Assembly: GCA_009777825.1 (NCBI GenBank)
Contig: WRLA01000010.1
Span: forward strand, 1 to 59,381
Length of the DNA stretch: 59,381 nucleotides
Direction: 5' to 3'
Source: Bacteroidales bacterium
GTDB taxonomy: Bacteria; Bacteroidota; Bacteroidia; Bacteroidales; WRLA01
Of the stretch, positions 26,156-59,381 are shown one piece after another. The translations under genes were made by a program, and so were the position numbers. Every line of letters starts with the position of its first letter. Positions within the stretch are counted from its first letter, which is position 1. The notes below the pieces were generated by a model, which saw only the letters and a program-made list of their open reading frames with translations, searched no databases and was not told the origin of the DNA.

Positions 26156-27449
26156 ATCGTTTCTTTTTACGTTTGTCTATAAATTTAATCGGTTTACGGC
26201 TAATGTCGGGCATGATTGTCGCCCGTATTTGGTCTGCCGGACAGATTTCTACCTCCGGCGCCACGCGGATACGCGCCCTGAAACGGTCTTTTAGGTCTTT
26301 AATCACGTCATAGTCAAGATGTTCGCGCAGTCCGATTTTTACGAGGATGTCGTCGGTTCCACATTCGTTGTCGGAGACTTCGACGAGATAGTTTTCGAGA
26401 TAGGAAACGTTGTCCAACACATCGAAGATGGCAGGCGGGTAAAGCGTTGTACCTTTGTATTTTATCAGATGGTTGAGTCTTCCCACGATGGGACTGATGC
26501 GCATGGTGGTGCGTCCGCACCGACACGGCTCGGTGTGAAAGCGTGCCAAATCTCCCGTCCGGAAGCGTAGCAGCGGCATTCCTTCGACGCCTAAGGTGGT
26601 AACGGTCAACTCGCCGGTCTCGCCTTCGGGGACGACGTTTCCGCTGTCGTCTATCAACTCGCAGATAATCAGTTCGGGATGGTGATGTCCGCCGCAGCCG
26701 TATTGACACTCGGTAAACGTGGTCGCCATCTCGGTGGAGGCGTAGGTTGAGTAGAGTTCGACGTTCCACTTCTCTTTGATGCTCTGTCCGAGCAGGTTTA
26801 ACGAAAAATCCTGCTCCCGCAGGTTCTCGCCGATGCAGACAAGTTTTTTGATGCTCGACTTTTTGTAGTCAATGCCGTTGTCTTCGGCGTATTTGATGAG
26901 CCTCAAGATAAACGACGGGACAACCACCGCCGCATTGGGTTTGAGGCGTTCGATGCTATCCCATTGTAACTCAGCGATTCCGTTGCCCACGCGAATGATG
27001 CTCGCGCCCAACTTGCGGATGCCGAGAAAATAAGCCAAGCCCGCCATAAAACGTTTGTCCATGGTGGTCATCAGTTGGAAGACGTCGCCTTTTTTAGCGC
27101 CGGCGCATTCAAACGAGATTTTCTCGTTGTAAGCCAGACGTTCTAAGTCGGCGTCGGTCATGGCGAAAGTTACGGGGTCGCTGAGCGTGCCGGAGGTGGT
27201 GATGTAGTCAATGACGTTTTCACGGGGGACGCAAAGAAAATCCGCGTTGTGCAGTTGTAAGTCCTGTTTGGTGGTACATGGAACCTGCGCCAAGTCTTCC
27301 AACCGTTGAATCTGCCGAATATCAATGCTGTTCTGCAAAAACATCCGCCTGTAAAACGGCGACTTCTCCTGCAAATAACGCAAGGCAAGTGTCAGTTTTT
27401 CCTCTTGGAGGCGCTTGATGGCTTCTTTGTTGCTATGTTCTATGTTCAT
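26148..27449 (-). CDS. PaaK-like AMP-forming acyl/aryl-CoA ligase family protein
   Basis: A 433-residue adenylate-forming enzyme of the phenylacetate-CoA ligase / F390 synthetase type. Visible motifs are YITTSGTLSDPVTF (phosphate loop), YSTYASTEMATTFTECQYGC, GETGELTVTTLGVEGMPLLR, FRTGDLARF and CRCGRT. The C-terminal subdomain (KGTTLYPPAIFDVL) is present. It would activate a carboxylic acid, aromatic or fatty; the substrate is not readable. Overlaps of 8 bases with the acyltransferase gene and 17 with the AlbA/HATPase gene show tight packing. Confidence 0.85.
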   Translation of the reverse strand: MNIEHSNKEAIKRLQEEKLTLALRYLQEKSPFYRRMFLQNSIDIRQIQRLEDLAQVPCTTKQDLQLHNADFLCVPRENVIDYITTSGTLSDPVTFAMTDADLERLAYNEKISFECAGAKKGDVFQLMTTMDKRFMAGLAYFLGIRKLGASIIRVGNGIAELQWDSIERLKPNAAVVVPSFILRLIKYAEDNGIDYKKSSIKKLVCIGENLREQDFSLNLLGQSIKEKWNVELYSTYASTEMATTFTECQYGCGGHHHPELIICELIDDSGNVVPEGETGELTVTTLGVEGMPLLRFRTGDLARFHTEPCRCGRTTMRISPIVGRLNHLIKYKGTTLYPPAIFDVLDNVSYLENYLVEVSDNECGTDDILVKIGLREHLDYDVIKDLKDRFRARIRVAPEVEICPADQIRATIMPDISRKPIKFIDKRKKKRYE

Positions 27450-29421
27450 TTTCTATTTTTATTTTCCAATAACTACCTTTACCTATGCCGACACGCTCAA
27501 TTAAGTCATTGAGTTTGAGTTTAGAGATTATTTTTTCTATTGCTCTTGTTGTTAAACCGGCAAGTTTTGCAAGATCATTAATGGTAATCATCGGATTTTT
27601 TTCTATTGCCAATAAAATGATCTCCGAACTTTTCCCCGAACTCTCCGAACTTTTCCCCAAACTCTCCGAACTTTTTCCCAAACTCTCCGAACTTTTTCCC
27701 AAACTCAACTTTTGATTATCGGCAAATTCATTAATATCTTTATCTGTAATAGAATTTATTATTTCCCCCCTACTTTTTTCCACAGTTTCCCCCCTACTTT
27801 TTCCGTTCCCTATACTTTTTTCCCCGCTTTTTTCCACAGTTTTCTCCACAGTTTTCTCCACAGTTGTTTTGCCATCTTTATCCATGTCTTTATTCATGTC
27901 TTTATCCATAGTTTTCTCCGAACTCAATTTTTGATTATTGGTGAATTCATGCACATCTTTGTCGGTAACATTTTCTATTTTTAAATTCCAATAACCGCCC
28001 TTAGTTCCGACACGTTCAATTAATCCTTTTGCTTTGAGTTCTTGTATATTCCATTCTATTCCGCGCCTTGATAATCCGGTTAACTCAGCGATTTTTTTTA
28101 GTGTAATTTTCGGGTTTTCTATTATCATTGTCATTGTTTTCTCCACAGTTTTTCCCACAGTTTTTCCCACAGTTTTTCCCACAGTTTTTCCCACAGTTTT
28201 TCCCACAGTTTTTCCCACAGTTTTTCCCACAGTTTTTCCCACAGTTTTTTCTCCATCTTTTTCCATGTCTTCCTCGGCAATATTTTCCGGCACATCAACT
28301 ATTTCAGTCTTTTTACTATACAAAATCGCCTGAAATCCATTAAATATCTCATTGAAGTCGGGTTCTTTTACGCCGTAGTCTTTGCAAATTTTACACACGC
28401 GCATAATGCCGGAGCCGTAGCGTTCTATCATGCCGGTCTCTTTAAATGCTTTGGCTACCAATTTGTTGCGCGATTTTGACGTGTAGTTTCCTGATAGTAA
28501 GTCTGCTACGGTTATTCCGTCATATAATTTTCCGGGGTTGTAAAATTCTATTCTGTCATCAAAAATTTTAATGATGCTTGCGGAACTGTCCCTGTAATCA
28601 CGGTGAACGACCATGTTTACGACAATTTCGCGAATGGCATCCAACGGATAATCAAACCGTTCCGTGCGTTTCAGTTCTCCGGTAATGATGTATTCGACTT
28701 GCAAATGTTTTTTGATAAACGCCATGATGCCATCTACTTCCTGAAACAAATCGGAATTTAACGAGATGGAATCAATAATGGTGATGTCGCTTTTGAAACG
28801 TCCGATTTGCACATCGCTAATGGCGCAATAATCGCTTACAAACAGAAGATATGCCCCGAAAGTAACCTTGCCATGACGCAAAATCTCCATTTTATTAAGA
28901 ATTTCCACATCAGAGAGTCCGACCTGACGAATGTTTTCATTTTGCCTGATTACGTTTACAAATTTCGCTATTTTTTCTTCCGACAAATCGGATACGGAAT
29001 GATTGGGATCAACGTAAAAATCCCAACTTGAGTTGATGGTTTTCAAATGTTCGTTGGCAATCTCATCCAAACTGAGTAGATGGTTGGAGTTGCCGGTACG
29101 TTTATAATATTTCCCTCTTACCGAAACCGGTTTTATGGGATACTCTATGACAGACAACGCTACTATTGTTTTGCCTCCGATCGTGAAGATTTCAGCGTCG
29201 GCGATGATTTGCGGGCTGGTTTTATTTTTTATCTCGTTTATCCAATTCTGAACACTTTCTTGCCCGACAGTTACACCCAGCGCTTTTCCCGTATCGGAAA
29301 CGCCAACATAAACCGTCCCGCCTTTTGCATTGGAAAACGCAACTAATGAGACGATTACCTCGTCGTTAAACGAAGTTTTAAACTCTACGGTTAAATTTTC
29401 TATTTTGGGTAAACGCTTCAT
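27433..29421 (-). CDS. AlbA_2 (Schlafen-like)/HATPase_c_4 regulator with duplicated winged helices
   Basis: A protein of about 662 residues. The N-terminal AlbA_2 domain (5-125: VEFKTSFNDEVIVSLVAFSN, then AKGGTVYVGV) is followed by an HATPase_c_4-like domain (250-370: YPLDAIREIVVNMVVHRDYR and RNKLVAKAFKETGMIERYGS). Two similar winged helix-turn-helix domains follow (TLKKIAELTGLSRRGIEWNI and TINDLAKLAGLTTRAIEKII). The linkers are built from in-frame tandem repeats: KTV-type 4-residue units and KSSESLG-type 7-residue units. I chose the ATG at 29421 (MKRLPKIENLTVEFKTSF) over 29448 because the extra codons fall in a dispersed repeat. Role: probably an ATP-binding transcription regulator (inference). 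Confidence 0.8.
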   Translation of the reverse strand: MKRLPKIENLTVEFKTSFNDEVIVSLVAFSNAKGGTVYVGVSDTGKALGVTVGQESVQNWINEIKNKTSPQIIADAEIFTIGGKTIVALSVIEYPIKPVSVRGKYYKRTGNSNHLLSLDEIANEHLKTINSSWDFYVDPNHSVSDLSEEKIAKFVNVIRQNENIRQVGLSDVEILNKMEILRHGKVTFGAYLLFVSDYCAISDVQIGRFKSDITIIDSISLNSDLFQEVDGIMAFIKKHLQVEYIITGELKRTERFDYPLDAIREIVVNMVVHRDYRDSSASIIKIFDDRIEFYNPGKLYDGITVADLLSGNYTSKSRNKLVAKAFKETGMIERYGSGIMRVCKICKDYGVKEPDFNEIFNGFQAILYSKKTEIVDVPENIAEEDMEKDGEKTVGKTVGKTVGKTVGKTVGKTVGKTVGKTVGKTVEKTMTMIIENPKITLKKIAELTGLSRRGIEWNIQELKAKGLIERVGTKGGYWNLKIENVTDKDVHEFTNNQKLSSEKTMDKDMNKDMDKDGKTTVEKTVEKTVEKSGEKSIGNGKSRGETVEKSRGEIINSITDKDINEFADNQKLSLGKSSESLGKSSESLGKSSESSGKSSEIILLAIEKNPMITINDLAKLAGLTTRAIEKIISKLKLNDLIERVGIGKGSYWKIKIENEHRT
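27620..27703. repeat. four 21-base tandem units inside coding sequence
   Basis: Four units of the type CTCTCCGAACTTTTTCCCAA(A), each 21 bases, encode SLGKSSE repeats on the minus strand in the linker before the last winged helix of the AlbA/HATPase protein. Loss or gain of a unit keeps the frame. Confidence 0.9.
28144..28251. repeat. nine 12-base tandem units inside coding sequence
   Basis: CACAGTTTTTCC is repeated nine times at exact 12-base spacing (CACAG at 28144 through 28240). It encodes KTVG units on the minus strand. Near-perfect identity points to recent slippage; unit changes are in frame and change only linker length. Confidence 0.93.
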
Positions 29422-29440
29422 CTTTTCTTTTGTTTGATAT

Positions 29441-29475
29441 TCTATCAATTAGTGTAAATTCGTGTAATTCGTGGC
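29441..29475. repeat. dispersed word between esterase and AlbA/HATPase gene
   Basis: ATTAGTGTAAATTCGTGTAA, then TTCGTGGC: a word of the dispersed Bacteroidota type that spans the esterase 3' end and the 5' extension of the next gene. A related word (CGTGTTAATTCGTAACTTTC) lies at 31590-31609 between the BRO-N and radical SAM genes. Confidence 0.5.
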
Positions 29476-30395
29476 TATAAATCATTCACCCACTCCACAA
29501 ATTCATCAATCCACCCTGTTGCTTTGCCGTTGGGTCGGATGCCGAAACCGTGTCCGCCGCGTCCTTTTTCTTCGAGCAGGAGAAATTTGTGTTTCACGTT
29601 CTTTTCCGTTAATGCTTCGTCGAAAACAACGCTGTTGCGGTAGTTCACCGTGCTGTCGCCTGTGCAGTGCAGCAGGAACACCGGCGGCATGTCGGGACGG
29701 ACGTTTTTTTCCAAACTCATCTTCTGTTTCAACTCGTCCGAATAGTTTTTTCCCAGCAAATTGTGGCGCGACCTTTTATGGCAAATGCTGTCTTCCATAG
29801 AGACGACAGGGTAGATCATGGCGGCGAAGTAAGGCGAGCCCCCCCAAGCCCCCCCGGAGGGGGGGGTGTGCGATGTGGGATTGTGAGACGTGAGATTGTG
29901 AGATGTGGTATTTTCTCTTGTCTCACATCGCATATCGGACAATCGCATATCGGAATAAATCGCCAACGTTCCGGCTAAATGTCCGCCTGCCGAGAATCCC
30001 ATCACGCCGATTTTGTCGGGGTTGACGCCGTATTCTGCACTGTTTTCTTTTACATGCTGCATGGCGCGTTCCAAGTCTTCTATCATGGCGGGATGATGGT
30101 TGCCGCGCAAGGCGGTGCGATAGCGCAATACGAATGCCGTAATTCCCTGTTTATTAAGATATTTCGCAACGGAAAAACCCTCATTGTTCAGGTCTAACCA
30201 AAAGTAACTGCCTCCCGGACAAATGATGACGGACACGCCCGACGGATCCGGCTTTTCGGGCAGAAAAACGCTTAATTCACTCCATTTTTGCTTGCGGGTC
30301 ATCTCGGCTCCATCCCAAAGTTTGATGGTTTTTTGAGCCGAAGCGGAGAGACCCGTAAACGTAATAAAATAAAGCATAAGTTTGAGTTTATTCAC
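29475..30395 (-). CDS. alpha/beta hydrolase (acetyl esterase/BD-FAE-like) with repeat-derived insert
   Basis: A 306-residue exported hydrolase with a signal peptide (1-20). VSVIICPGGSYFWLDLNNEG is the oxyanion-hole region, GFSAGGHLAG carries the nucleophile Ser, HCTGDSTVNY supplies the acid and GGHGFGI the His. It resembles sugar acetyl esterases. About 30 residues after SDMRLSDMRC (including TTSHNLTSHNPTSHTPPSGG) are encoded by dispersed repeat DNA (29845-29950) inserted in frame in a loop between nucleophile and acid residues. The fold may tolerate it, but activity is uncertain. Confidence 0.85.
   Translation of the reverse strand: MNKLKLMLYFITFTGLSASAQKTIKLWDGAEMTRKQKWSELSVFLPEKPDPSGVSVIICPGGSYFWLDLNNEGFSVAKYLNKQGITAFVLRYRTALRGNHHPAMIEDLERAMQHVKENSAEYGVNPDKIGVMGFSAGGHLAGTLAIYSDMRLSDMRCETRENTTSHNLTSHNPTSHTPPSGGAWGGSPYFAAMIYPVVSMEDSICHKRSRHNLLGKNYSDELKQKMSLEKNVRPDMPPVFLLHCTGDSTVNYRNSVVFDEALTEKNVKHKFLLLEEKGRGGHGFGIRPNGKATGWIDEFVEWVNDL
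29845..29950. repeat. dispersed repeat inserted in esterase coding sequence
   Basis: This stretch holds a C-rich/G-rich palindromic block (CCCCCCAAGCCCCCCCGGAG and the following G run, about 29849-29873). It is followed by GTG(C/A)GAT-type words like those at 5118-5171. It is read through in frame on the minus strand. The G-rich core recurs in the FAD oxidoreductase gene at about 34186-34212. Confidence 0.8.
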
Positions 30396-30402
30396 TGTAT
30401 TT

Positions 30403-30762
30403 TTAATTCAATAAAATTCTTACTTCATCCTTTGATAGTTTCCGATAATTGGCTTTGGATGTATCGTTGAACGTTACCTCGAAGTACTGTTCGTCGTAGA
30501 ACGACAGCACCGAGTTGGTGTCGGGCGTACATTCCAAATAGACAATTTGCGACAAAGGTAAATCTTTTTTTTCACATATTTGCTTTGCCAAGTTATATCC
30601 TGTTGCGGTTACCGACGTGCCGGGGTTGTCCTGATACAGTTCGGTAACAATAACAAACGTTTTGCCGCCTTTTCGGATAATCTTCAAACCGCACTTCGAC
30701 GGAACTTCCCATTGACCTTTGAAGTCAAAGATTTCGCTGTAGTAATTTTCGGGGACTTTCAT
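30403..30762 (-). CDS. unknown 119-residue protein
   Basis: I do not recognise the family. The protein is soluble with no signal peptide. It starts MKVPENYYSEIFDFKGQWEV, contains GLKIIRKGGKTFVIVTELYQ and DNPGTSVTATGYNLAKQICE, and ends in an acidic-basic stretch. The look is that of a small, regular alpha/beta protein. Its start overlaps the end of the BRO-N gene by 4 bases, so the two genes are translationally coupled and probably act together. Confidence 0.7.
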   Translation of the reverse strand: MKVPENYYSEIFDFKGQWEVPSKCGLKIIRKGGKTFVIVTELYQDNPGTSVTATGYNLAKQICEKKDLPLSQIVYLECTPDTNSVLSFYDEQYFEVTFNDTSKANYRKLSKDEVRILLN

Positions 30763-31583
30763 TTTTTTAATTCTTTTGCTTTTTTCTTTTCAGGCAAATA
30801 ATTCTCTTCGGACACAACTCGTTCACCTGTTTTCAATTCTAATGCTTTGCGGGCATCGCCGGCGATTTCTCCGCCTTGTCGGGCTGCTTGCTTGTTTTGT
30901 ACAAATCCTTTTGGATTTTGTGTGCGAACAATAGCTGTTGTAGAAGCCTCGCCAAGCATCGAAAAAATGAGTTCAAGATCATTAAAATGGTCACGCAAAT
31001 TTTGACTTTTCAAACCTTTAACATGTTTGTATTCAGAAGGTGTAAGTCCAAAAGTGGCTTTTGAGATTTCGGCAGTAAGGATGGCATACTCTACTTTTTC
31101 CTTTACACCGTGATTTTGCCATTCGTCTGTCAACTCCTCTCTAATAGCAATGCTACGCATACGTTTTTCAATCCAATCGTCGGAGTAACCTTTGAGTTTG
31201 TACAATTCACGAGTACGTTGTGTAGCAATTTCGGGATTTTCGATTTCCTCAATTCTTTCACTGCCCACTTGTGCCAACCAACGCTTAAAAGGCTCTGCTT
31301 TAGGTGATGGGATGGATTGAATAATGCGAAACATGCCTTTTAAATCGGCACAATTCATTCGTTGTTTACCACCTGCTGTTTCCACTGTAAGGGTAGGTAC
31401 AAATTGTACCCATCCTTTGGAAAGTTCTTCGTCGCGTTGCCGTAAGCGTTTAATATATTGCTTGGGGTCTTTGCTATCAGTCAAAATAGCGACAACATCT
31501 TCCACAACAAAATACCATTTTTCTTCCGTTTCGCTCCAAGTAGTACGGACTTTCTTGCTTTCAAAGAGTTTTATATTGCTCAT
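30759..31583 (-). CDS. BRO-N domain (phage antirepressor-like) protein
   Basis: A 274-residue protein starting MSNIKLFESKKVRTTWSETE, then EKWYFVVEDVVAILTDSKDP, the BRO family N-terminal DNA-binding domain (1-110). The C-terminal part (110-274: REELTDEWQNHGVKEKVEYA and TFGLTPSEYKHVKGLKSQNL) is the common extension of Bacteroidota 'phage antirepressor' or DinD-like proteins. The ATG at 31583 matches the family start; a frame to 31637 overlaps the radical SAM gene. Likely of phage origin and embedded between pathway genes. Confidence 0.85.
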   Translation of the reverse strand: MSNIKLFESKKVRTTWSETEEKWYFVVEDVVAILTDSKDPKQYIKRLRQRDEELSKGWVQFVPTLTVETAGGKQRMNCADLKGMFRIIQSIPSPKAEPFKRWLAQVGSERIEEIENPEIATQRTRELYKLKGYSDDWIEKRMRSIAIREELTDEWQNHGVKEKVEYAILTAEISKATFGLTPSEYKHVKGLKSQNLRDHFNDLELIFSMLGEASTTAIVRTQNPKGFVQNKQAARQGGEIAGDARKALELKTGERVVSEENYLPEKKKAKELKK

Positions 31584-31608
31584 TGTTTTTCGTGTTAATT
31601 CGTAACTT

Positions 31609-32880
31609 TCATGGTTTCCTAATAATCTCTTTCCCAAAACTCTTATTCACCAATTCCCGATTACGCGGGCGATACGTCCCATCTTCCATTTCGCGCATGA
31701 CTACTTTTGTGAAGAGGCGCATCATTTTCGATTCTTGCGATTCGTCGGCGTAGAATGTTGTCCATGCGTAGTCGTAGAGTTCTTGCAGTTTGTTGGCGGA
31801 CATTTGTTTGGGATGGAACACTACTTGTCCGGCGTTGTAGTGGTTCCAGTCGTGGTTGAAGATGCGGTTTTCGCGTAGCAGGTCGTCGTAGGCTTTGGTG
31901 TGCGGGAAGGGGGTCATCACGGTAAACTCTGCCAAGTCCAGGTCTATTTCGAGCAGGAAGTCTATGAGGCGTTTGATGTCGTCTTCGTTTTGGTTGTCGA
32001 GTCCCAGCAGTATGGTGCCTTCCACGCCGATGCCGTAGTCGTGATAGCGTTTGATGCGCTCCTTGATGTAGTCGGAGGTGTCATACACGGCTTGATACAC
32101 GTACCATGCGCCGGCTTGTGCCGCCAGGTCGAGGATTTTCGGGTCGTCTTCGATGGTGTGGCTGATCCATTTTTTCTTGAAAGGGATCATCTCTTTGAAG
32201 AGTTGCGTCTCCCACTCTTTGTCTTGTGCAAGGGAGTTGTCAACCACAAACAGGCGGTTGTTTTCGATGGTCGCCAGATCCTCCACCACCTTCTCCACCG
32301 GACGCGGACGGAACACGCGCCCACCCAGATAGGACACAGCGCAGGGATAACAACTAAACCGACATCCGCGCGACGCATGAAACAGATCAACCATCTGCAC
32401 GCCTTTGTGGTTGTAGAGGTCGCGGTTGTAGAGGTCGCGACGGGCGGGACCTACCGTCTCGATGGCGGGATGTTTGCCCATGAAGTTGTATATCTTCTTG
32501 AGCGTATTGTTTTTGAAGTCGTTGATGACCTCTTCCATGCGACCTTCGGCTTCGCCGAGGAAGACGGCATCGGCATATTCTGTGGTCTCTTCGGCGTGCA
32601 GCATGGTGGAGATGCCTCCGAAAATCACCTTTTTACCGCGCCGGCGAAACTCGTCGGCGATAGCCCAACCGCGCCGTACCTGCGTGCTGAGCATCATGGA
32701 GATGCCGACAAAGTCGCACGCTTCGTCAAAATTGATCGCCTCCACATTCTCATCGGTAAACGATACCTGCACATCTGCCGGCAACGCAGCGGCAAAGACC
32801 ACCGGACCGTGAGGCGGCAGGTTGAACGTGGTCTGTCCCGGAAGTTTGTTCCATTTAGGATAAATTAGTTTGAATTTCAT
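31609..32880 (-). CDS. B12-binding-type radical SAM protein
   Basis: A 423-residue radical SAM enzyme. The N-terminal cobalamin-binding-like domain (1-150: GISMMLSTQVRRGWAIADEF, VIFGGISTMLHAEE, VFLGEAEG) precedes the core with GCRFSCYPCAV, a CX3CX2C cluster motif. EGTILLGLDNQNEDDIKRLI and EFTVMTPFPHTKAYDDL are later core strands. Members methylate or rearrange unactivated carbons. I chose the ATG at 32880. A 15-base direct duplication gives DLYNRDLYNHKG before the cluster motif. It follows the FAD oxidoreductase gene by 34 bases. Confidence 0.85.
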   Translation of the reverse strand: MKFKLIYPKWNKLPGQTTFNLPPHGPVVFAAALPADVQVSFTDENVEAINFDEACDFVGISMMLSTQVRRGWAIADEFRRRGKKVIFGGISTMLHAEETTEYADAVFLGEAEGRMEEVINDFKNNTLKKIYNFMGKHPAIETVGPARRDLYNRDLYNHKGVQMVDLFHASRGCRFSCYPCAVSYLGGRVFRPRPVEKVVEDLATIENNRLFVVDNSLAQDKEWETQLFKEMIPFKKKWISHTIEDDPKILDLAAQAGAWYVYQAVYDTSDYIKERIKRYHDYGIGVEGTILLGLDNQNEDDIKRLIDFLLEIDLDLAEFTVMTPFPHTKAYDDLLRENRIFNHDWNHYNAGQVVFHPKQMSANKLQELYDYAWTTFYADESQESKMMRLFTKVVMREMEDGTYRPRNRELVNKSFGKEIIRKP

Positions 32881-32914
32881 TCTTAAAAGTCTTGTGTCTA
32901 AAAGTCTAAAAATC

Positions 32915-34453
32915 TCATTTCCCCTCCCCATTTATCTTTCCAAGCAGATATTCCATCCCCAGCAACTCCCCGCAAGTAGCGATAGCAGTAAGCGGCACGC
33001 CCAATATTCCGTGCAGGTTGATGTTCTGTCCGGTGAGCAGCAGGTTGTCTATCTTGGTGCGGATGGAGATGTTGGAGGCTATCATGTTGTTACAATCTTT
33101 TACGGTGCCGTAGTTGGCGCCCTCTTTGGAGCCGTAGTAGTCGCGGATGGTGAGTGGCGATGCGCAGAATATGTTGTCTATCTTGGAGCGAATGTCGGGA
33201 AATGGTTTTTCCAGCATGTTGAGCAGTTTCTCTTCGCACTGTTTTTTAAACGCCAAATAGTCATCTCCGCGCTTGCCGACGGTGGTGTTTTCCCACTGCC
33301 TGACGGTGTCGAAGTTCATGATGGTGTTTACAATCATTTTCTGTGCAAAAACGTCGTTTTCCGTTACCGGCGGCGTCAGATACATACATCCGCGGGGCCA
33401 AGTTTCGTTGGTATATTCGGCGCATTTCCATACGTCGTCGTAGTCGGGCGCATAGTAGCCGGTGTAGTTGAGGTATGGGAAACTTTGTGGTTTGAATGTG
33501 ATGAATGCGGCAAAGGTGGAGTAGGAGTTGGGGATATTGTCTATGCGCTGGTAGTACGATTTTTGGATTTTGGAGAGGTCCATCAGTTTAAACATGGCGG
33601 AGGTGTGGATGGCTGAGATATACCAGTCGGCGGTAAATTCTTCTCCATCGTCGGCGATTACTTTTTGAATGTGGCGGTCTTGAATATCAATAAAACGTGC
33701 GCCGTTGCCTGTAAGCACCTCGCCGTTATTTTGCTCGATGACTGCTACTAACAGGTCGGCAAGTTGTTGAGTACCACCTACAAAGCGGCTCGCCCCTTCG
33801 ATATAAAACTGTGTGATGAGCGCTCCGACGTAAGCGGGCGTTTTCTCTTTTTCGCCGCCATACAGCACATTGTTCCACGCCAGCAACGCTTGCAGTTTGG
33901 GATTGCTTGTGTATGAGGCTATCAACTCGCTTACGCTTTTAGACATGATTTCGGTGTTGGAATAAATATCTGCCGACGGTGCTTGCAGGTTGAACAGCGC
34001 GACGCCATCGCAGATTTCATACACCCGGTCAATGTAACGGCGTATGTTCTCTTTCTCTTCGGGAAAGTGTGCGCCGAGCGTTGCTACGAAGTTTTCGCGC
34101 CCTACTGCCATTTTGTAGGTTATCCCGTCGGAGGCTACGTGAAAATGGTCGAAACCGTCCGGGTTGGCAGGTTTTATCAATAACCCCTCCAAGCCCTCCT
34201 CTGGATGGCTTGAAGAGGTTATTGTAAGATAATTAAACAACCGTCTCAGCACGCCATCCGGTTGAAATCCGCTGATGACGTGTACGCCGGTTTCCCATTC
34301 AACGCCGTTGCGTTTAAAGGTATGTAAACCACCGCCGGCGACTGTGTGTTTTTCCAATACGCGGACGCTGTATCCCTCTTTGGACAGAATGGCGCCGCAC
34401 ACCAAGCCGCCTATGCCTCCTCCTATAATCAGTACTGACTGTTTGCCTTTCAT
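32915..34453 (-). CDS. NAD(P)/FAD-dependent oxidoreductase (phytoene desaturase-like)
   Basis: A 512-residue flavoprotein. The dinucleotide-binding motif is VLIIGGGIGGLVCGAILSKE (residues 8-27), followed by VLEKHTVAGGGLHTF. The C-terminal FAD motif is LLLTGQNINLHGILGVPLTA. It belongs to the CrtI/carotenoid-isomerase-like group that desaturates or isomerises polyenes. Residues near 80-95 (SSSHPEEGLEGLLIKPA) include an insert coded by a G-rich dispersed repeat. It heads the minus-strand run; TACCTTTGCAT at 34473-34483 is its likely promoter. Confidence 0.87.
   Translation of the reverse strand: MKGKQSVLIIGGGIGGLVCGAILSKEGYSVRVLEKHTVAGGGLHTFKRNGVEWETGVHVISGFQPDGVLRRLFNYLTITSSSHPEEGLEGLLIKPANPDGFDHFHVASDGITYKMAVGRENFVATLGAHFPEEKENIRRYIDRVYEICDGVALFNLQAPSADIYSNTEIMSKSVSELIASYTSNPKLQALLAWNNVLYGGEKEKTPAYVGALITQFYIEGASRFVGGTQQLADLLVAVIEQNNGEVLTGNGARFIDIQDRHIQKVIADDGEEFTADWYISAIHTSAMFKLMDLSKIQKSYYQRIDNIPNSYSTFAAFITFKPQSFPYLNYTGYYAPDYDDVWKCAEYTNETWPRGCMYLTPPVTENDVFAQKMIVNTIMNFDTVRQWENTTVGKRGDDYLAFKKQCEEKLLNMLEKPFPDIRSKIDNIFCASPLTIRDYYGSKEGANYGTVKDCNNMIASNISIRTKIDNLLLTGQNINLHGILGVPLTAIATCGELLGMEYLLGKINGEGK
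34186..34225. repeat. G-rich dispersed repeat inside FAD oxidoreductase gene
   Basis: On the minus strand the gene reads CCAGAGGAGGGCTTGGAGGG. This aligns with the GGGGGGCTTGGGGGGG core of the repeat in the esterase gene but is translated in a different frame (HPEEGLEGLL against PPSGGAWGG). Confidence 0.7.
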
Positions 34454-44404: not shown

Positions 44405-44745
44405 GACGCAATCCATTCCTCTCCCCCCTTTTGCGTTAACAAAGACTTTTGAAACAGCCTCTAAGCCCATCACACCATCCCGTTAGGGATGTAATATTGG
44501 TAGAAACCGAGCGCTCCCGTGCTACCGCGTGCCGTAGGTACGTTATATTCAAGCACAGGAAATATTGCACGCGGTGTCGGGAACGTTAAATCTCTGTGAA
44601 ACTCCGTGAACTAAGAAGTCCAAAAGAAGCGTATCGGGAATATCCATCAACGCTAAATCTCTGTGAAACTCTGTGAACTCTGCGGCTCTGTGCTGAAAAT
44701 AATCTAATAGGGAGAACATATAGAGATCTGTATCATTAAAATCAG
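44405..44745. repeat. intergenic block of dispersed repeat words
   Basis: No gene is visible. The block contains the palindrome ATCCCGTTAGGGAT (44479-44492), then a GGTAGAAACCGAGCG and CGTGCCGTAGGTACG stretch. Two near copies of AATCTCTGTGAAACTC(C/T)GTGAA lie at about 44590 and 44651. The same CTCTGTGAAACTCTGTGA word appears in reverse at 46375-46400. These look like non-coding dispersed repeats; some may fold as terminators. Confidence 0.75.
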
Positions 44746-46339: not shown

Positions 46340-46560
46340 CACGTCATATTTTTTATTCAGCACAGAGACACAAAGATCACAGAGTTTCACAGAGATACGT
46401 TTATCTTACGACGTATGCTTTCTTGATGTTGTGGAACATTGAAGTTCTAATTTCATATCCGATAATTTAATATTATATTCTAATTCTGACATATTTTCTG
46501 TGTAACTTTGTGTCCTCAGTGTCTCTGTGTTGAAAAAAAACGATAATATCGTCATTTTAT
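46340..46560. repeat. dispersed repeat words between comM and the small membrane gene
   Basis: CAGCACAGAGACACAAAGAT and CACAGAGTTTCACAGAGATA (46360-46400), and the reversed form TGTGTCCTCAGTGTCTCTGT (46508-46527), flank about 100 bases of AT-rich sequence. They form an imperfect inverted pair. No gene is visible. Confidence 0.7.
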
Positions 46561-56754: not shown

Positions 56755-59381
56755 CTACGGAATCACCACTACTTTCCCTTCTTTCCCATTCGCCTGTATC
56801 ACATAAGTCCCCGGCTGCACGTTGCTAAGTGTGAGCGTGATGGGGTTTTTGGTAGCGATGACGCTGCGCACGCACATGCCATACTGGTTGAAGACCTGCA
56901 CAGTACACCCTTCTACGACGCCTTCGACGGTGAACGTATTGCCCGAAATCACGGGGTTGGGATAGATGACTAAGTCACCACTGGGCGGGTTGGAGAGTGG
57001 GTTGTAGTCGAGTGCCTTATGCGTAGAGCAGAGCGGTCCGTGGCTGCTGGTGAGCAGTTCGAACATGTACCATGTCGGCGCCAATTCAAGGAGGTCGGTG
57101 ATGGCAGGACCTGCCGAGTAACTGAATTCGTCTATGGTGCGTGTGGTGGGTTCTATGTTGCCGTTTTTGTACCAGATACAGCCGGTTACGATGTAATGTT
57201 CTTCCGCTAACTTCCTGAGGTTGAGCATAAAGGTGTTGTTCCAGAGGGTGGGTGCGTAGGTGTCGAAGTCGAGTGCGTAGAAGTTAGCGACGACGGTTAC
57301 GTCTTTCGTAACGGTGAAGGTGTATATCGGGTCGAGTGAGACGATGTCGTCGTCTATTGTCCAGTGGGCGAAGCGATAGCAACTCGTGGTGGTCGCCACG
57401 ACGGTTACGCTTTCGTCTTCCCCATAGACGCCGTCGCCTTCGGTAAAGCCATAGTTCGGGTCGTTGACATCGGTGATGACGGTATAGAAGATGCTATCGA
57501 AATGTGCTACCAAAGTACGGGATTGCGTTACGGTGAACGTGTAAATGGAATCCGGAGAAACCGGCATACCATTTTCCGTCCAGTTGATAAACATGTAGTG
57601 CGGATTGGGAGTTGCTTTTACGGTGGCTTCTTCGTTGTTATCGTAAAATCCGCCGCCGGTAACTGTGCCGCCTATCGGCGGATCTGCTATGACGGTGATA
57701 TCGAACGATTGTATGGTGAAATTGGCGACCAAAACGCGGGATGATTTTATGTCAAATGAATAGTGATCAAGATTAGAAACCGGAACGCCATTTTCCGTCC
57801 AGTTATCGAATTGATAGCCTTCAGCGGGGATTGCTATGACGATGACGGGATCTCCGCAGGGGGCATCGGTGTAGTTTTGGAGGGCTGTGCCACCGGTTGG
57901 CGGATTGGCGAAGACGGTAACATTGAAAGTTTTCTGTTCAAAGTTAGCGACGAGGGTGCGCGGTTCGGTTACCAAAAATTCATAATCAGTGGTGTAGCAA
58001 ACCGGTACACCATCTTCCGTCCAGTTGATGAAAGTAAAACAGTCGTCGGGGATTGCTGTTACCGTGATGATTTCTCCGCAGAGTTGATTGCCGCCGCCCT
58101 CGACGTCGCCGCCTGCCGGTGGATTTCTCAACAGGGTGATGGCGAAGGTTTTCTGTGCAAAGTTGGCGACCAAATCGCGGTCTTCGAGTACTACAAAGGT
58201 GTATTCGGCGTCGTAGGAGACTATAACGCCGTCTTCTGTCCAGTAGAGGAAGGTGAAGCAGGTGTCGGCGATGGCGGTTACGGTGATGGTTTCGCCGCAG
58301 AGGATGCCGGTAGCGCCGCCGGTAGCGTCATTGTCGCCGACTTCCGGATCTACAGATACCGTAATATTGCAATATCTTATCGTAAAGTGCGCCACAATAT
58401 CGCGGTCTTCTTCAAGTACAAAGGTATAAGGATTTTCGTTGGAGACGAAATTACCGTTTTCCGTCCATTCGACGAAGGTGTAACATTCGTCGGGGATAGC
58501 CGTGATGGTGATGCTGTCGCCGCAGGGGAGTCCGGTGCCGTCGCCGGTAACTTCGCCGGTGTTTGGCGAATCTACCGACAGGGCGACGTCGTAGAGTATA
58601 ATCTCGAAGTTTGCAACCAAAGTACGTGATTTTGTTACGGTGAACGGGTATTGCGGGTTGAGCCAAACCGTATTTCCGTTTTCCGTCCAATCAACAAAGT
58701 TGTAGCACGGGTGGGCGATGGCTTCGACGGTGATATTGTCGCCTGCCTCGTAGGTACCTGCGCCGATGAGCATTGTTGCGCCGTCGGGCGGGTTTGCCAA
58801 AAGGATGATATCGTAGGTGTCTTTCTCAAAATGTGCTACCAGATGAGTGGATTTTTCTACTATAAATGTGTAAGACGCATTGGTAGAAACTTCATCGCCA
58901 TCTACTGTCCAATTGATAAAATGGTAGCCGTCGTCGGGGAAAGCATGTACCGTTTTGGATGCTTTGCAGGGGATGTTTGTTGCCGGTATTTCAACGAAGA
59001 CTTGACCACCATTTGGTGTTGGTTGGTCTGCTTCTACGGTAACGTCGAAATACGACAGTTCGAAATTCGCAATTAAAGTGCAAGATTCTTCTACGTCAAA
59101 CGCATAGAAAGCGTCCCATGAAACCACAACGCCGTTGAGCGTCCAGTTGACGAAGGTGTAGCAGGGTTCGGGGAATGCCTTCACGATAACGGTTTCTCTG
59201 CAATCATAGATACCGCCGCCGGAGACTGTTCCACCGTCTGGCGGATTGGGTAACACGGTGATTTGGAATGTTTTAACCTCAAAGTTAGCAAACAAAATCA
59301 GGTTGTCGCCAACGATAAACTTGTACAGCGGGTCGGTAGAGACGATTGTGCCGTCGAGGTCTGTCCAGTTCACAAATTCGT
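56755..59381 (-). CDS. large type IX-secreted protein with ten InlB B-like repeats (5' end outside window)
   Basis: The frame is open to the right edge, so the N-terminus is missing; at least 875 residues are present. Ten tandem units of about 75 residues share the pattern FxNWTExGxxVSxxxxYxFxV, then xxRTLVANF and (N/D)PPxGGTVxGGG. This resembles the divergent InlB B-repeat/Listeria-Bacteroides repeat class of adhesins. After the repeats a separate domain (about 100 residues) leads to a type A sorting domain: LVIYPNPVISGNTFTVEG, then VQPGTYVIQANGKEGKVVVI. Probably a cell-surface adhesin anchored through the type IX system (inference). Its stop lies 19 bases before the PEGA gene promoter region. 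Confidence 0.85.
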   Translation of the reverse strand, partial: EFVNWTDLDGTIVSTDPLYKFIVGDNLILFANFEVKTFQITVLPNPPDGGTVSGGGIYDCRETVIVKAFPEPCYTFVNWTLNGVVVSWDAFYAFDVEESCTLIANFELSYFDVTVEADQPTPNGGQVFVEIPATNIPCKASKTVHAFPDDGYHFINWTVDGDEVSTNASYTFIVEKSTHLVAHFEKDTYDIILLANPPDGATMLIGAGTYEAGDNITVEAIAHPCYNFVDWTENGNTVWLNPQYPFTVTKSRTLVANFEIILYDVALSVDSPNTGEVTGDGTGLPCGDSITITAIPDECYTFVEWTENGNFVSNENPYTFVLEEDRDIVAHFTIRYCNITVSVDPEVGDNDATGGATGILCGETITVTAIADTCFTFLYWTEDGVIVSYDAEYTFVVLEDRDLVANFAQKTFAITLLRNPPAGGDVEGGGNQLCGEIITVTAIPDDCFTFINWTEDGVPVCYTTDYEFLVTEPRTLVANFEQKTFNVTVFANPPTGGTALQNYTDAPCGDPVIVIAIPAEGYQFDNWTENGVPVSNLDHYSFDIKSSRVLVANFTIQSFDITVIADPPIGGTVTGGGFYDNNEEATVKATPNPHYMFINWTENGMPVSPDSIYTFTVTQSRTLVAHFDSIFYTVITDVNDPNYGFTEGDGVYGEDESVTVVATTTSCYRFAHWTIDDDIVSLDPIYTFTVTKDVTVVANFYALDFDTYAPTLWNNTFMLNLRKLAEEHYIVTGCIWYKNGNIEPTTRTIDEFSYSAGPAITDLLELAPTWYMFELLTSSHGPLCSTHKALDYNPLSNPPSGDLVIYPNPVISGNTFTVEGVVEGCTVQVFNQYGMCVRSVIATKNPITLTLSNVQPGTYVIQANGKEGKVVVIP

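Follow-up and report, generated by a model that had tools for sequence, protein, structure and literature searches.

Rickettsia palindromic elements (RPEs; Ogata et al. 2000, reviewed in PMC10969869) are repeats of ~150 bp that lie in frame in many unrelated conserved genes. They give rise to new protein segments and have expanded in a lineage-specific manner (PMC10969869, PMC3733652). Among the cases reviewed in PMC10969869, such colonization of genes is special to Rickettsia. REP and REPIN elements with their RAYT transposases (PMC3733652, PMC3116915) are short hairpins, often arranged as facing pairs, that form lineage-specific families; a location outside genes, a GTAG or CGTC foot tag and a repeat-flanked RAYT gene are among their hallmarks. 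MITEs have inverted ends in common with a larger gene-bearing element of the same genome and include short internal-deletion derivatives. Homing endonucleases of the EDxHD type, such as I-Bth0305I, occupy recurrent fixed insertion sites in conserved genes, and homing endonucleases are described as harmless in coding sequence by virtue of introns or inteins (review PMC3943268). In inteins with a homing endonuclease domain, the endonuclease is translated in frame inside a conserved host protein.

Here we describe a repeat found in a window of 59,381 nt, a contig from the genome of a gut-type member of the Bacteroidales (2.48 Mb in 90 contigs, 69% complete assembly). Like an RPE, the repeat is palindromic, lies in frame in many unrelated conserved genes, adds new protein segments and has expanded in one lineage. 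It differs in size (a 37-nt hairpin), phylum and sequence family, and in having a nuclease-encoding partner element, none being reported for RPEs. Thus, the repeat works like an RPE and is not of the RPE family. On balance, we consider it probable that the copy in the window, located in an esterase gene, is the solo end of a mobile element whose full form pairs two inverted C-rich hairpins with a DUF559 gene lying between them, DUF559 being an endonuclease domain with an EDxHD, Vsr-like homing-type fold.

The repeat in the esterase gene and the oxidoreductase palindrome

The esterase gene (window positions 29475-30395, minus strand) encodes a protein of 306 residues with an alpha/beta hydrolase fold (BD-FAE / Abhydrolase_3), as judged from its open reading frame (ORF), Pfam and the solved homologues 7dwc and 6a6o. 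It contains one repeat unit, AGC7-AAG-C7-GGA-G8-TGTGCGA (AGCCCCCCCAAGCCCCCCCGGAGGGGGGGGTGTGCGA; 29837-29873, plus strand), with one mismatch to the 29-nt core consensus of the repeat family. The outer end of the unit (AGCC) is sharp and borders the host codons for the conserved PYFAAM. The inner end continues into a tail of degenerate short words (GTGAGATTGTGAGATGTGG and others; 29874-29948, plus strand), which completes the insert (residues ~150-187). In the esterase frame the unit is translated as TPPSGGAWGG, in agreement with the PPSGGAWGG given by an earlier sequence-only reading of this DNA, which had placed the block, and a second one in an oxidoreductase gene, correctly to within ~10 bases. 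The loop is absent from all 18 aligned homologues, the size of the insert varying from ~22 to 38 residues with the homologue compared. Alignments to the solved esterase structures are interrupted at this place, ending at residues 143-149 and resuming at 187-191. In the AlphaFold2 model, residues 160-178 have a pLDDT below 50 and the remaining fold is confident. Note that the inner ends of solo copies generally run into short degenerate words (GATGTGCGATGTGCG, GTGAGATTGTGAGATG, TTAGACACAAGAC), which are also translated, at 29874-29948 as well as at many copies elsewhere in the genome. Such tail words are present inside T9SS sorting domains, too.

The second gene (32915-34453, minus strand) encodes a FAD-dependent oxidoreductase of 512 residues (NAD_binding_8 / Amino_oxidase type by ORF and Pfam). 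At 34179-34223 it contains a 45-bp palindrome, AATAACCCCTCCAAGCCCTCC-TCT-GGATGGCTTGAAGAGGTTATT, with TCT as the loop and arms that pair at 18 of 21 positions. The palindrome corresponds to host residues ~77-91, a region in which the oxidoreductase exceeds each of 23 aligned homologues by 9 residues; pLDDT falls below 50 at residues 85-88 of an otherwise confident AlphaFold2 model. The low-pLDDT segments of the two models probably represent flexible loops. Both blocks had been proposed to sit at loop positions, and the alignments agree, the loops being missing from every homologue compared; no distant homologues sharing them were found.

The proposal that one repeat is present in both genes fares differently on its two sides. 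The esterase copy is a true family member. In contrast, the likeness of the oxidoreductase palindrome to the family is confined to the CCCCTCCAAGCCCTCC block (~15-16 nt; 2 mismatches of 15), which corresponds to C-block-AAG-C-block, and the G7-RTGTG half is lacking. A genome search allowing up to 3 mismatches over 20 nt found no second copy of this palindrome, and, unlike the family consensus, it contains a stop in at least one of the six frames. It is plausibly a diverged member of the repeat family or a convergent element; if diverged, it may possibly derive from two facing half units.

Other repeats in the window also lie in coding sequence. Within an ORF read as a DNA-binding/ATPase-type protein (27433-29448), tandem repeats of 12 nt (KTVG units) and repeats of 21 nt (SLGKSSE units) represent another case of in-frame repeat expansion. 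An array of six to seven copies of a ~222-bp repeat, with 60-88% identity, is located within coding sequence at 57478-59325. The word ATCTCTGTGAAACTCTGTGAACTCTG is repeated in direct and inverted copies at 44582-44702 and 46351-46396, and at some hairpin copies in other parts of the genome the tail consists of similar words.

In-frame copies, empty sites and restriction to one lineage

The family has the consensus AGC7-AAG-C7-GAA-G7-RTGTG, folds as a hairpin and comprises roughly 50 copies. Alignment of 41 copies revealed a sharp outer edge, AGCC, and a run of eight conserved bases (RTGTGNGR) at the inner edge, giving a unit of 37 nt. There are 31 exact genomic copies of CCCCCCAAGCCCCCC. A 24-mer search with up to 2 mismatches returned 37 copies and its reversed control none; a reversed 15-mer was uninformative as a control, being itself two mismatches from the pattern. 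Flank composition, which shows a weak A/T preference around the copies, gave no sign of a target-site duplication or of a strong target motif. Viral contigs yielded no copies.

We classified 52 copies, diverged ones being counted within the stretches examined, by reading the translated ORFs and applying a codon-usage score trained on the window. ORFs contain 43 of them, and 34 are strictly internal and in frame by the codon-usage test. By location, 12 copies form linkers immediately preceding T9SS sorting domains, and 25 occupy internal positions in other genes. Six are N-terminal, and 1 is read into at a C-terminus; a further 6 are noncoding or come after a stop codon, and the assignment of 2 is uncertain. 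The hosts, named from sequence motifs and homologue alignments, include ValS (3 copies), a ketoacyl synthase (KAS; 2 copies), MurE, MurC, RuvC, a NuoF-like subunit, S-adenosylhomocysteinase (SAHH), an Fe-S oxidoreductase and a histidine kinase, in addition to the T9SS genes. All 25 internal copies outside the T9SS group keep the frame of the host, where length alone would predict one third (p ~1e-12, selection included); selection obviously contributes to this. The family consensus is free of stops in all six frames, as are only 2.8% of random 34-mers at the GC content of the genome, and all six frames are used among the genomic copies. The sequence-only reading had suggested that the repeat tolerates insertion into coding DNA and creates new loops. 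The number of further copies in ORFs, the variety of frames used and the excess of frame-neutral copies over chance bear this out.

Insert-free versions of nine additional hosts (ValS, MurE, MurC, RuvC, SAHH, the NuoF-like subunit, the Fe-S oxidoreductase, KAS and an acyltransferase) are found in congeners or other members of the order, defining insert borders as the esterase and oxidoreductase alignments do. In SAHH, for example, the inserted TAPPCPPKGGEY lies between KY and ATSKP. That the loops are ancestral, low-complexity sequence born of slippage, or an assembly artefact rather than insertions is extremely improbable. C and G runs are indeed prone to slippage, and two contigs terminate in long C/G runs beside repeat copies, which are probably assembly breaks or poly-G artefacts. 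However, the 37-nt unit is near identical across dozens of unrelated genes in both orientations, homologues and congeners are without the insert, and the ValRS cassette described below occupies the same site in independently assembled MAGs.

Two congeners contain no copy of the 24-nt core, indicating that the expansion is lineage-specific. Moreover, in six other DUF559-bearing Bacteroidales genomes none of 45 hairpins of the same design was internal, all being located outside genes, compared to 34 of 52 in this genome by the same strict test; the codon score, trained on the window, is less sensitive in other genomes, but 57% of random positions drawn from these stretches pass, showing that the test works there. 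In-gene location as a general property of such hairpins was thus rejected, and colonization of genes is special to this lineage. The solo hairpins of the other Bacteroidales resemble REP/REPIN elements.

A DUF559 cassette in ValRS and its relatives

The sole DUF559 domain found in the genome is encoded in frame within ValRS and is bracketed by repeat copies. The sequence-only reading is supported with two corrections: the oxidoreductase palindrome is no clear member of the family, and the repeat doubles as the terminal sequence of a DUF559 cassette. The insert (amino acids 205-394) starts with IAPPSPP and ends with GGLGGA. In an alignment to T. thermophilus ValRS it maps between residues 204 and 207, where the editing domain begins, and the remainder of the enzyme aligns on either side. 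Pfam detected no splicing domain in the insert, and there is no Hint domain with a Cys/Ser start and a His-Asn end. No Rfam intron was matched at five host loci; the reading frame of the cassettes and their hosts is continuous. The cassette shares with endonuclease-bearing inteins the in-frame translation of the nuclease inside a conserved host protein, but with no splicing domain found, its sequence leads us to expect that it stays in the mature protein.

Among 84,980 species represented by one genome each, just four contigs, all from Bacteroidales, contain an exact 23-mer of the repeat. Three of the four belong to other Bacteroidales MAGs in which the same cassette occupies the identical position in ValRS. 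A comparison of cassette and flank identities did not support recent horizontal spread of the cassette between families, the cassettes being more diverged than their hosts.

A short ValRS element adjoins the full cassette and repeats the first 53 nt of its interior at 91% identity. The acyltransferase insert, which is still open, contains the two inner ends of this element, oriented the opposite way. To judge from these sequences, both look like internal-deletion derivatives of the cassette, and the shared inner ends tie the short elements to it. Most solo copies have tails unrelated to the DUF559 cassette. The system thus resembles MITEs in its inverted ends (ValRS cassette, facing pairs) and in these two apparent derivatives. 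It differs from MITEs in that the partner gene is a homing-type nuclease instead of a known transposase and that the copies are mostly single ends.

DUF559 matches 3HRL (E 1.9e-22) and has a weak match to the homing endonuclease I-Bth0305I (3R3P; E 0.0012). A genome paper assigns a DUF559 protein to the EDxHD homing family (PMC9403480), and in another paper a DUF559 protein is called Vsr-like (PMC12907096). Catalytic-type positions (E, D, ExDG, H, D, R) are conserved across the embedded DUF559 copies. The cassette has this related nuclease domain, its conserved residues and recurrent fixed sites in conserved genes in common with EDxHD endonucleases. It differs from them in being bracketed by hairpins in the host frame, with no intron or intein.

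DUF559 is present in 161 of 393 genomes of the order Bacteroidales, to which the window belongs. We read 31 embedded loci, located at recurrent sites: 14 in LeuRS, just before the TTRPDT motif; one further locus in ValRS, at the homologous place; four in IleRS, between YPFE and ADFIAEG; eight in restriction or methylase genes; three in sugar-pathway genes; and one in another gene. Family models served to check nine of these hosts and Pfam the ValRS one; the others were named by motif reading. Most embedded loci have C-rich hairpins of the form C-block, 3 nt, C-block, loop, G-block, which are often inverted and vary in sequence by lineage. Within 200 nt of DUF559, hairpins occur at 2.79 per kb, versus 0.019 per kb farther off (52 deduplicated loci), a more than 100-fold enrichment. 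A hairpin is present at 25 of the 31 embedded and 7 of 21 other DUF559 loci, fractions that are not population estimates, since loci were chosen by DUF559 score and the embedded set also by ORF length. At the genome level, 31 of 40 genomes with the hairpin motif have DUF559, compared to 130 of 353 others (p 9e-7, ignoring phylogeny and genome size). Nine hairpin-bearing genomes had no DUF559 match, three of these being plain C-run artefacts. For cyanobacterial, proteobacterial and Deinococcus plasmids, the hairpin densities were 4.06 per kb near DUF559 and 0.148 per kb otherwise.

In a plasmid of the cyanobacterium Pseudanabaena galeata, a 4.9-kb CDS next to a BREX gene contains DUF559, and in one Bacteroidales genome the domain lies inside a PglX/Eco57I-like methylase. 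In-frame cassettes thus reach defence methylases and another phylum. No link between DUF559 and tRNA synthetases was found in the literature searched, most subscription journals being outside it.

Candidate routes of spread

The arrangement of hairpins around DUF559 bears on whether the repeats could instead be REP/REPIN-like and moved by a Y1 (RAYT-type) transposase, with DUF559 as a passenger caught between two repeats. The genome encodes two Y1 transposases, the size of the hairpins and their facing pairs are REPIN-like, and intragenic REPs have been reported (PMC3733652). We nevertheless regard this explanation as unlikely. Neither Y1 gene has a repeat of its own within ~1 kb, the sole nearby copy being that of a T9SS gene, and no repeat-flanked RAYT is seen. 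The consensus has the edges AGCC and RTGTGNGR and lacks the GTAG or CGTC foot tag, and the strictly internal copies differ from the extragenic setting of REPs. A passenger role would also leave unexplained why hairpins bracket DUF559 in many genomes and across several phyla.

Spread might also have been passive, requiring no dedicated enzyme and proceeding through homologous recombination or gene conversion between C-rich hairpins (e.g. swaps of T9SS sorting domains); DUF559 genes would then persist beside hairpins since breaks are tolerated there. Tail shuffling or duplication predicts repeats at one place before related sorting domains, as seen for the twelve T9SS copies, and gene conversion predicts the near identity of copies within the genome. 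The remaining copies, however, are in unrelated genes with sharp outer borders and no common flanks, and cassettes of different families share their insertion sites in LeuRS, ValRS and IleRS. We therefore consider passive spread quite improbable.

The C-rich hairpin repeat and the in-protein nuclease cassette together suggest a mobile element that lives in proteins without self-splicing. They are best read as a non-splicing homing-type DUF559 element and its non-autonomous ends, the movement of which we infer. DUF559 would cut an unoccupied site, and repair would copy in the cassette or its ends, with the hairpins possibly acting as a DNA or RNA signal. Whatever the frame, the hairpin ends read as Pro/Gly-rich linkers devoid of stops, which would allow loop insertions to leave the host protein working, and selection would retain the copies that preserve the frame. 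The host gene would express the nuclease within its own protein, with no need for an intron or intein. The short ends would have multiplied and colonized coding DNA in this genome; in the other sampled genomes, solo hairpins are found between genes. Note that DUF559 alone does not explain the in-gene spread, as DUF559-bearing relatives keep their hairpins outside genes.

Tentatively, and with somewhat less than even confidence, we extend this reading to a splicing-free class of homing elements. DUF559 cassettes with hairpin ends as frame-open linkers would invade the essential LeuRS, ValRS and IleRS genes, be expressed in the host protein and stay there; their ends would escape as in-frame copies that make loops, and the partnership of hairpin and DUF559 would extend outside Bacteroidota. 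If true, cassettes that stay inside three different tRNA synthetases would represent another route into coding sequence for homing endonucleases. DUF559 would be a candidate mobilizer for a widespread class of C-rich hairpin repeats, and this genome would provide a second, independent case of Rickettsia-type loop-making repeats, with clean empty sites in the same genus. The element would also account for odd proline-rich or DUF559-containing housekeeping enzymes in databases.
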